This document shows positions 18,057-22,409 of a stretch of DNA of 64,000 nt, in pieces (the stretch's first letter is position 1; every line of letters starts with the position of its first letter). The notes below the pieces were generated by a model. The model worked only from the letters and a program-made list of their open reading frames with translations. It did not search any database and was not told where the DNA came from. The stretch covers positions 1-64,000 of the forward strand of contig CACEMT010000005.1 of NCBI GenBank assembly GCA_902560685.1, read 5' to 3'. The translations under genes were made by a program, and so were the position numbers. The DNA comes from an uncultured Pelagibacteraceae bacterium (lineage in GTDB: Bacteria; Pseudomonadota; Alphaproteobacteria; Pelagibacterales; Pelagibacteraceae).

Positions 18057-20435
18057 ATGGCAAGTTTAGTAGGATCGAGAGTTGAAAGAAAAGAAGACAA
18101 AAGATTTTTGACAGGTAAGGGTAGATACACTTCTGATATTAATATTGCTAACCAAACATATGCTATATTTATTAGATCGCCACACGCAAGAGCAAAAATA
18201 AAAAAAATTGATACCTCTAAAGCACTTAAATCTTCAGGAGTAGTAGAAATTTTAACAGGAGAGCATATAGCGCAAGATAAAATTGGAGGTTTGATCGCTG
18301 GATGGGCTATTAGAAGTGAAGACGGTTCAGAAATGAAATGTCCAGCAAACCCACCATTAGCAAAAGATAGTGTAAATTTTGTTGGAGATCCTGTAGCTGT
18401 AGTTTTTGCTGAAACCTTAGATGAGGCTAGAGCAGCAGCTGATTTAGTAAAAGTTGATTACAAAGTTTTAAAGGCAGTTTCTAATTTAAGTGAAGCAATG
18501 AATAGTGAAGCAATACACGATGGTATAGAAAAAAATCTTTGTTACGATTGGTTGCTCGGTGATAGACAAAAAGTTAAAGAGGCATTTGAGAAAGCAGATA
18601 AAATTATAAAGCTAGATATCAATAATAATAGACTTATTCCTAATGCTATGGAACCAAGAGCCTGTGTAATAGATTATAACACAGCTTCAGAAGAAATAAC
18701 TTGTTACACTACAAGTCAAAATCCACATTTATCAAGATTGATTATGTCAGCTTTTGGAGGTGTTGCTCCAGAAAATAAATTAAGAGTTGTAGCGCCAGAT
18801 GTAGGAGGAGGATTTGGATCAAAAATTAATCTTTATAACGAAGAAATAGTTTGTAGCTGGGCTTCAAAAAAAATAGAGAGACCTATTAAATGGGTAGCTG
18901 AAAGAACAGAGTCTTTTTTAACAGATACTCACGGAAGAGATCATATTACTCATGCTGAACTTGCAGTTACTAACGATGGTAAATTTTTAGGATTTAAAAA
19001 TGAAACAATTGCAAATCTTGGAGCTTATGCAAGAGTATTTGGAACTGTAACTCCAACATATTTATTTGGACCATGTGCAACAGGAGTTTATATAATGCCC
19101 GCTGCATATTCTAATGTTAAAGCAGTATATACAAATACAGCACCAGTAGATGCTTATAGAGGAGCAGGCAGACCAGAAGCTACTTATACTATTGAAAGAA
19201 TTGTAGACAAGGCTGCAATGGAACTAGGAATGGATCCAATTGAAATAAGAATGAAAAACTTTCCTACAGAATTTCCATTTAAACAAACATTAGTTCATCA
19301 AATAGATTCAGGTGATTATGTTGCTGGATTAAACAAAGCAAAAGAAATGGCAGATTATGATGGTTTTGCTGCTAGAAAAAAAGAATCTGAATCAAAGGGT
19401 AAACTTAGAGGTATAGGAGTAACCTCTTATTTTGAAGCATGTGGAATTGCACCATCACCAGTAGTGATGATGTTAGGCTGTGGAGTTGGATTATGGGAGT
19501 CTGCCGAAGTAAGATTTAATCCAACAGGACAAGTTACAGTTTATACTGGTTCACATAGTCATGGACAAAGTCACCAAACTACATTTGCACAAATTGCTGC
19601 TGATGAATTAGGAGTTCCAATGGAAAATATTGATGTTGTTCATGGTGATACTGACAAAGGCACATTTGGTATGGGAACATATGGATCAAGATCTTTAACT
19701 GTTGGAGGAATAGCAATAGTTAATGCTTGTAAAAAAATAGTTAATAAAGGAAAAAGAATTGCTGCTAAAATGTTAGAAGCAAGTCCTGATGAAGTTGATT
19801 TTAAAAATGGAGAATTTGTTGTCGCAAAATCAAATAAAAAGAAAACAATAGGAGAGGTTGCTTTTGCAAGTTATCTTCCTGGTGTAAGAGACGAAGTTAA
19901 ATCGCCCTTACCAGAAGGAGATGAACCAGGATTAATAGAATCTTCTTTTTTTGATCCAGCTAATTTCTCTTTTCCAGCAGGATCACATATTTGCGAAGTT
20001 GAAATAGACCCTGAAACAGGCCATGTAAAACTTGATAAATACACAGCAGTTGATGATTTTGGAACTATAGTGAACCCACTAATTGTGGAAGGACAAGTTC
20101 ATGGTGGATTGGCTCAAGGAATTGGTCAAGCTTTATATGAGAACGCACAATATGACGATTCTGGTCAATTAATTACAGCTTCTTACATGGATTATACAAT
20201 GCCAAGAGCTGATGATCTTCCAAACTTTAATTTAGGATTTACATGTACAAAGGCTACTACTAATCCATTAGGAGTTAAAGGATGTGGAGAAGCAGGAACT
20301 ATAGCTTCAACACCAACAGTAATGAATGCAGTTATAAATGCACTTGGTGGAAAAGAAATTTCTTTACCAGCAACAGCAGAAAAAGTTTGGAAAGCATGTA
20401 AAGAAATGAAAAAATCTAATGCTAAGGCGGCTTAA
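18057..20435 (+). CDS. coxL: Mo-hydroxylase large subunit, form II CoxL-like
   Basis: 792 aa xanthine dehydrogenase-family Mo-binding subunit; active-site loop VDAYRGAGRPE = form II AYRGAGR, not form I AYRCSFR. Confidence 0.94.
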   Translation: MASLVGSRVERKEDKRFLTGKGRYTSDINIANQTYAIFIRSPHARAKIKKIDTSKALKSSGVVEILTGEHIAQDKIGGLIAGWAIRSEDGSEMKCPANPPLAKDSVNFVGDPVAVVFAETLDEARAAADLVKVDYKVLKAVSNLSEAMNSEAIHDGIEKNLCYDWLLGDRQKVKEAFEKADKIIKLDINNNRLIPNAMEPRACVIDYNTASEEITCYTTSQNPHLSRLIMSAFGGVAPENKLRVVAPDVGGGFGSKINLYNEEIVCSWASKKIERPIKWVAERTESFLTDTHGRDHITHAELAVTNDGKFLGFKNETIANLGAYARVFGTVTPTYLFGPCATGVYIMPAAYSNVKAVYTNTAPVDAYRGAGRPEATYTIERIVDKAAMELGMDPIEIRMKNFPTEFPFKQTLVHQIDSGDYVAGLNKAKEMADYDGFAARKKESESKGKLRGIGVTSYFEACGIAPSPVVMMLGCGVGLWESAEVRFNPTGQVTVYTGSHSHGQSHQTTFAQIAADELGVPMENIDVVHGDTDKGTFGMGTYGSRSLTVGGIAIVNACKKIVNKGKRIAAKMLEASPDEVDFKNGEFVVAKSNKKKTIGEVAFASYLPGVRDEVKSPLPEGDEPGLIESSFFDPANFSFPAGSHICEVEIDPETGHVKLDKYTAVDDFGTIVNPLIVEGQVHGGLAQGIGQALYENAQYDDSGQLITASYMDYTMPRADDLPNFNLGFTCTKATTNPLGVKGCGEAGTIASTPTVMNAVINALGGKEISLPATAEKVWKACKEMKKSNAKAA

Positions 20436-21259: not shown

Positions 21260-21589
21260 ATGAAAAATTCATTTGATGAAAAAATCTTAGAAGAAGCAAA
21301 TGATTGGTTAAATGCTAACCAAAAAGTTGTTCTTGCTACAGTAATTCAAACATGGGGTTCATCACCTAGGCAAGTCGGAAGCAGAATGATTGTTAATGAA
21401 ACTGGAGATTTTTCAGGCTCTGTTTCTGGTGGATGTGTAGAGTCCGCAGTAGTAAGAGAATGCATTGGTTTAATTAAAGACAATAAACCATGTAAAAAAA
21501 TTGAATTTAAAGTTTCTAATGAAAGTGCTTGGGAGGTGGGACTTGCATGTGGTGGCGAAATAGCAGTTTATTTGGAACAGATAAATTAA
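21260..21589 (+). CDS. XdhC/CoxI N-terminal domain as a stand-alone protein
   Basis: VVLATVIQTWGSSPRQVGSRMIV, GSVSGGCVESAVV, GLACGGEIAVYLE; stops before the Rossmann domain. Confidence 0.88.
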   Translation: MKNSFDEKILEEANDWLNANQKVVLATVIQTWGSSPRQVGSRMIVNETGDFSGSVSGGCVESAVVRECIGLIKDNKPCKKIEFKVSNESAWEVGLACGGEIAVYLEQIN

Positions 21590-21593
21590 ATTT

Positions 21594-21728
21594 ATGATTG
21601 AGATGCATAAAAAATATATAGACTGGTGGAAAAAAAACCTTAACCTTTCCGATTATGCGGTACTTTGGATAACGTTTATTAAAGGCTTAATCATTGGACT
21701 TTTAATCTACCATTTTTTTATTGTTTAA
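21594..21728 (+). CDS. Membrane microprotein between the XdhC halves
   Basis: Hand translation: MIEMHKKYIDWWKKNLNLSDYAVLWITFIKGLIIGLLIYHFFIV*, 44 aa. Starts 4 nt after the upstream stop; its TAA directly abuts the next ATG at 21729. One C-terminal hydrophobic helix. Absent from the ORF track. Confidence 0.72.
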   Translation: MIEMHKKYIDWWKKNLNLSDYAVLWITFIKGLIIGLLIYHFFIV

Positions 21729-22409
21729 ATGAAACACTCTCAACTTAAGGAAATAATCAAAAAAAAGGCTTCAAAGATAGAATTTGCAATTGTAACTAAT
21801 CTTGAAAATGGTTTGAGCGAAATATATGAACCTGGAAAATCATTAAGCAAAGAATTTGTAATTCATAAAGAGCAAATTGACAATTTTTTTAAATTAAAAA
21901 AAAATGGAGTAATAGAAAATACTGAAATTTTTATTGAAACATATATTAGACCTATAAAAGTTATTATTGTAGGTGCAGTTCATATAGCTCAATATCTGGT
22001 AGATTTTGCAAAAAGCTTGAACTTTGAAATTTCCATTATAGATCCTCGTGGCTATTTTGCATCGGAACAAAGATTTCCTGATATGAAAATTATCAATAAA
22101 TGGCCAGATGAAGCTTTTAAAGAAATAGAGACAAATGAAAACTCTGCACTAATTGCATTAACTCACGATCCCAAAATAGACGATCCAGCATTACAACACG
22201 CTATTAATAAAAAATTTTATTACATAGGTGCGTTAGGTAGTAAAAAAACTCATGAAAACAGATGTCAAAGATTAAAAGAAGCAGGATTTAATAGTGACCA
22301 AATTAATTCAATACATGGTCCAATTGGTATTAAATTAGGTGGAAGATCAGCTCCAGAGATAGCTTTATCTATTATTGCTCAGTTAGTATCAGAAACTTAT
22401 AAAAAATAA
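21729..22409 (+). CDS. XdhC Rossmann-fold C-terminal domain as a stand-alone protein
   Basis: VIIVGAVHIAQYLVDFAKSLNFEISIIDPRGYF, LTHDPKIDDPAL, YIGALGSKKTHENR, GPIGIKLGGRSAPEIALSI. Confidence 0.88.
   Translation: MKHSQLKEIIKKKASKIEFAIVTNLENGLSEIYEPGKSLSKEFVIHKEQIDNFFKLKKNGVIENTEIFIETYIRPIKVIIVGAVHIAQYLVDFAKSLNFEISIIDPRGYFASEQRFPDMKIINKWPDEAFKEIETNENSALIALTHDPKIDDPALQHAINKKFYYIGALGSKKTHENRCQRLKEAGFNSDQINSIHGPIGIKLGGRSAPEIALSIIAQLVSETYKK

Follow-up and report, generated by a model that had tools for sequence, protein, structure and literature searches.

The window (the whole 64,000-nt stretch of DNA that was analysed) holds a 44-aa open reading frame between the two halves of XdhC (Table 1). 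The translated peptide is MIEMHKKYIDWWKKNLNLSDYAVLWITFIKGLIIGLLIYHFFIV. Four bases (21590-21593) separate the XdhC-N stop at 21589 from its ATG, and the ATG of XdhC-C at 21729 directly abuts its TAA. Frame, peptide and both spacings were exactly as given in the original prediction. Elsewhere in the window, a molybdenum large subunit (18057-20435) carries the motif AYRGAGR (form II type) and had its highest score, which stayed under the cut-off, with glyceraldehyde dehydrogenase alpha and not with CO dehydrogenase.

Table 1. Coordinates of the microprotein gene, its predicted helices and the flanking genes in the window.
Feature	Positions	Strand	Basis
XdhC N-terminal half (PF02625)	21260..21589	+	Upstream flank; E 2e-24
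44-aa single-pass membrane microprotein gene	21594..21728	+	ATG 21594, TAA 21726-21728; profile E 7e-27; dN/dS; AlphaFold model
K/W-rich N-terminal helix, codons 2-16	21597..21641	+	AlphaFold; predicted cytoplasmic
TM helix, codons 20-43, with buried conserved K30, G31-xxx-G35 and Y39-H40-F41	21651..21722	+	AlphaFold and conservation table
XdhC C-terminal Rossmann half (PF13478)	21729..22409	+	Downstream flank; E 1e-38

For the microprotein, no Pfam or NCBIfam model scored above its curated cut-off, PADLOC returned no match, and a composite of the SAR11 family gave nothing significant against PHROGs. The gene was not found described in the literature on Pelagibacter small membrane proteins, T4-GC families and CoxG/XdhC. 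It belongs to a hitherto undescribed microprotein family with a single membrane span; members are ~44 aa long in SAR11 and occur in phages as stop-to-stop frames of 42-83 aa.

The AlphaFold2 model (mean pLDDT 88) consists of a helix of residues 2-16, a hinge and a helix of residues 20-43. The second helix bears out the single C-terminal TM helix that had been predicted, and it is conserved across the family. The predicted amphipathic, Trp/Lys-rich N-terminus was upheld in its composition; across the family it is only weakly amphipathic (shuffle p 0.04 for the window copy, median p 0.15 for the family). Residues S19, F28, K30, G31 and Y39 were invariant in 57 distinct standalone sequences, and G35, H40 and K6 were near-invariant. 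The extent of the second helix in the model places K30 inside the membrane helix; together with the GxxxG and YHF motifs, this lysine suggests a specific partner within the membrane. Mean charge in the family was +2.8 for residues 1-20 vs +0.1 beyond residue 31. Given the basic N-terminal half and the neutral C-terminus, an N-in/C-out topology is expected from the positive-inside rule.

Distribution and selection

Relatives of the microprotein were recovered across SAR11 genomes by tblastn and profile. They were present in 29 of 101 relatives (weak matches included), in 45 of 397 genomes of the family (profile, E down to 1e-26) and in 63 of 398 genomes of the order, the samples overlapping and the counts therefore not being independent. 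Presence was patchy (11-16% of sampled genomes), with many of these genomes being incomplete single-cell assemblies in which absence is less firm than in near-complete ones. Essentially one copy was found per genome, which at such frequency is not informative. A search of 85k GTDB species genomes gave 160 loci; the titles of the best 80 of these were Pelagibacteraceae, Pelagibacter or Pelagibacterales, bar one MAG titled Parcubacteria (L300). Among 387 genomes of class members outside the order there were two weak matches only, both judged to be chance: one fell within an esterase-like protein, and the second was a stretch of 18 residues.

Dozens of relatives align gap-free across the 44 columns, and in nearly all relatives the frame has neither gaps nor stops, the exceptions being one homopolymer frameshift (L112) and two remnants (L145, L146). 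Both truncated remnants lie after hisE; one is an N-terminus fused to a peptidase-like gene and one a 26-aa stub. Median pairwise dN/dS was 0.17 for copies in the xdhC context, 0.19 for hisE, 0.24 for rnhB and 0.27 overall (Nei-Gojobori; rough values, as there are 44 codons). The microprotein is under purifying selection, and the gene is genuine, a spurious ORF being ruled out by conservation and dN/dS. An interrupted frame in relatives and a lack of purifying selection had been named beforehand as grounds for doubting the gene, and it survived both.

Insertion at coupled gene junctions

Contexts were read from the neighbourhoods of ~70 loci. Three sites recurred: the XdhC-N/XdhC-C junction (11 genomes from four genera), the junction between uracil-DNA glycosylase (UDG) and rnhB (33 genomes), and a position after hisE, followed by a gene of the HIT family or by variable genes (19 genomes). 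The 80 named GTDB loci comprised 50 in the rnhB context, 23 in the xdhC context (one with SNase), five at hisE and two unclassified. Single odd sites were also present. At one of them, L131:4082-4158 (G604), a tRNA-Met gene contains the stop codon of the microprotein.

Thirty xdhC junctions were surveyed. XdhC-N and XdhC-C overlapped or abutted in 21 (-4 to +2, one at +23; mostly TAATG), seven held the microprotein (one as a fusion) and two held another insert. Because the two XdhC halves overlap directly in genomes that lack the microprotein, the gene is a clean insert here. Occupants of the junction included the microprotein fused in frame to SNase (G226, L342), a lone SNase that carries a signal peptide of its own (G150, L348), and a 222-aa PEMT-like membrane protein (G102, L349), a homologue of which follows the microprotein in G221. 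The junction is an insertion hotspot. A further in-frame fusion was found in family f2, where a 345-aa alpha/beta hydrolase has the microprotein module as its N-terminus and YHF has been lost.

The UDG/rnhB junction of genomes lacking the microprotein was often -4, the others ranging from -5 to +24, and the hisE/HIT junction was mostly -4. Both are empty in the window genome, with gaps of 1 (rnhB, L361) and 9 (hisE, L392). Inserted microproteins re-form coupling codons, TAATG with rnhB and ATGA with hisE. Where the microprotein is absent, stop and start commonly overlap at each of the three junctions, so it appears to borrow translational coupling, by which its expression probably rides on the host operon. 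Other inserts of ~320-350 nt, apparently encoding a small TM or secreted protein, occur at the hisE/HIT junction of L393, L398, L404, L405 and L409 (1230 nt in L405). Wilhelm et al. (2007, PMC2217521) reported small gene insertions in SAR11 genomes that are otherwise syntenic, and found that rearrangements cluster at operon boundaries; the present case is similar in kind but differs in that the microprotein inserts into tightly coupled junctions within gene pairs, one family at several sites. In streamlined genomes, overlapping junctions may serve as landing sites for unrelated genes.

The position of the gene in the window had led to the proposal that it tethers an XdhC/CoxG/CO-dehydrogenase-like maturation complex to the membrane. 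This is now very improbable, despite the tight coupling between XdhC-N and XdhC-C in several genera and the C-terminal hydrophobic segment of CoxG in the same operon, because the microprotein is present with no XdhC-C match in G135 and G143 (99% complete, single contig) and in G201, G227 and G231, and because G168 and G186 have both genes unlinked, the microprotein lying at hisE and nothing occupying the xdhC junction. Most copies of the microprotein are not beside xdhC, most XdhC operons checked have the N and C halves overlapping directly with no microprotein between them, the phage relatives have no evident XdhC link, and the junction is also occupied by other, unrelated genes. Linkage or co-occurrence of the microprotein with xdhC was thus not consistent, each gene being found without the other, and an XdhC-specific function was rejected on the junction survey and co-occurrence. 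Tight coupling of a gene within an operon is no proof that it shares the operon's function.

Relatives in marine T4-like phages

Scanning IMG/VR with the SAR11 alignment gave 18 relatives on viral contigs, and subsequent scanning with the phage alignment gave 87. Relatives occur in marine T4-like phages. Most phage forms are stop-to-stop frames ending in GAILL or similar, in cyanophage-like contigs. Copies in named phages were a gene of Synechococcus phage metaG-MbCM1 (AFD02954), upstream of gp17, and an unannotated ORF between gp3 and uvsY of Prochlorococcus phage P-SSM4. Most standalone phage copies have no recognised endolysin next to them. One viral contig (L212) carries two copies, at 100 and 1831.

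In a second phage form (L149-L155, L162-L166) the microprotein module runs into a lipobox (LLTGC). It occurs in uncultured Mosig-like SAR11 phages, after a TM-anchored glucosaminidase endolysin (PF01832) and a multi-TM protein. Pelagibacter phage Mosig is the nearest phage to these contigs (exonuclease 73%); Mosig itself has no lipoprotein at the matching junction, where its genes abut, and a search of named phages with the 131-aa lipoprotein gave no match. In a tree of 38 columns, obtained by a quick search, the lipobox forms fall inside the SAR11 clade, with the rnhB-context copies of G055, G320 and G521 (SH-aLRT 97), and the standalone phage forms lie opposite, alongside the f2 copies. We read this tree as pointing to at least one host-phage exchange, in one direction or the other.

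Candidate functions

The gene probably encodes a phage-shared, mobile, translationally coupled membrane microprotein of the flexible gene pool that SAR11 bacteria and marine T4-like phages would have in common. As a clean cassette, it enters gene junctions mostly where a stop overlaps the next start (xdhC-N/xdhC-C, UDG/rnhB, hisE/HIT), and it probably uses the translational coupling of the host operon for its expression; its position carries little functional information on its neighbours. The product is predicted to lie N-in/C-out, with the basic helix on the cytoplasmic face and the conserved residues K30, GxxxG and YHF in the TM helix.

The most likely function, put forward tentatively, is that of a superinfection-exclusion-type factor, with which a resident phage or cell would hinder another phage at entry or at steps in the membrane. 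A role in phage-host conflict would suit a family that is patchy, exchanged with phages and indifferent to its neighbours. Relatives are encoded by T4-like phages, and a TM helix is predicted for the bacterial form, so that the family is both phage-encoded and, by prediction, membrane-located. Comparison with known defence and exclusion families gave no PADLOC match and no significant PHROG match, and no defence genes were recognised among the neighbours, which were viewed unsystematically. It is possible, at a slightly lower level of confidence, that the family serves SAR11 and its phages as a minimal factor for exclusion or immunity, spreading by scarless insertion into overlapping stop/start junctions and expressed by coupling without a promoter or ribosome-binding site of its own. 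SAR11 cells rank with the most abundant on Earth, and their resistance to phages is poorly understood; a selected 44-aa membrane protein that is exchanged with phages, and that one strain has and its neighbour lacks, is a small candidate for phage-host conflict that lends itself to testing.

That the TM sequence is widely conserved could also point to a membrane partner with a housekeeping role. A metabolic accessory role is about as likely as the exclusion role; the microprotein would then be a small TM subunit, or a regulator, of some widespread membrane complex, and phages would carry it as an auxiliary gene. In favour of this, the invariant K30 with GxxxG and YHF in the TM helix implies a specific partner, selection maintains the microprotein in many genomes and in unrelated operons, and cyanophages carry small TM auxiliary proteins (hli). 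CydX and CcoM, small TM accessory subunits of oxidases, and AcrZ, also a small TM accessory subunit, are likewise short single-TM proteins with conserved helix motifs. The microprotein differs from them in being patchy and phage-shared, in having no fixed partner operon and in having no Pfam or NCBIfam similarity. Presence in only 11-16% of sampled genomes would be odd for a core-complex subunit, and there is no tie to the operon of one enzyme. The phage copies near an endolysin would fit lysis as well as exclusion. A component of a lysis module captured by hosts, either a holin modulator or, when fused to the lipobox domain, a spanin-like protein, is however unlikely: the Mosig-like gene order and a weak PHROG match to an Rz-like spanin (E 0.33, not significant) speak for it, but standalone phage copies mostly lack an adjacent recognised endolysin, the P-SSM4 copy lying between gp3 and uvsY and the metaG-MbCM1 copy upstream of gp17, and a holin-like toxin would be costly if expressed from hisE or rnhB operons. 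A type I toxin-like peptide was likewise judged unlikely because the gene is embedded in coupled operons. Less likely than the lysis role, though more likely than the XdhC tether, is a reusable signal-anchor sequence with no function when alone. The module does serve as the N-terminus of the f2 hydrolase, the G226 SNase and the phage lipoproteins; against this, purifying selection has preserved the C-terminal YHF and GxxxG in standalone copies, and the loss of YHF from the f2 fusion implies an extra constraint on the standalone form.

The exclusion reading can be compared with characterised phage factors. Imm of phage T4 is a superinfection-exclusion membrane protein. So are SieA of P22 (PMC10883804) and Llp of T5 (PMC9586334). 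All three belong to the phage-encoded membrane or lipoprotein factors that act at entry, and the microprotein family likewise has predicted TM and lipoprotein forms in phages. They differ from it in that no sequence similarity was seen and in that the family is mainly standalone, ~44 aa long and in bacterial operons.

SNase genes lie near or next to the microprotein in phages of several lineages, and this link is suggestive only. A tight partnership was rejected, as the genes belong to a small-gene cluster, the phage SNases have no signal peptides and the G150 SNase occupies its junction alone. SNIPE is a membrane-bound anti-phage defence nuclease of E. coli (PMC13190303), and the G226 fusion of the microprotein to an SNase domain shares with it, conceptually, the combination of membrane anchor and nuclease. 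It differs in that this fusion, the single one of its kind found, has an AxA signal-peptidase-like site and an SNase of extracytoplasmic type.
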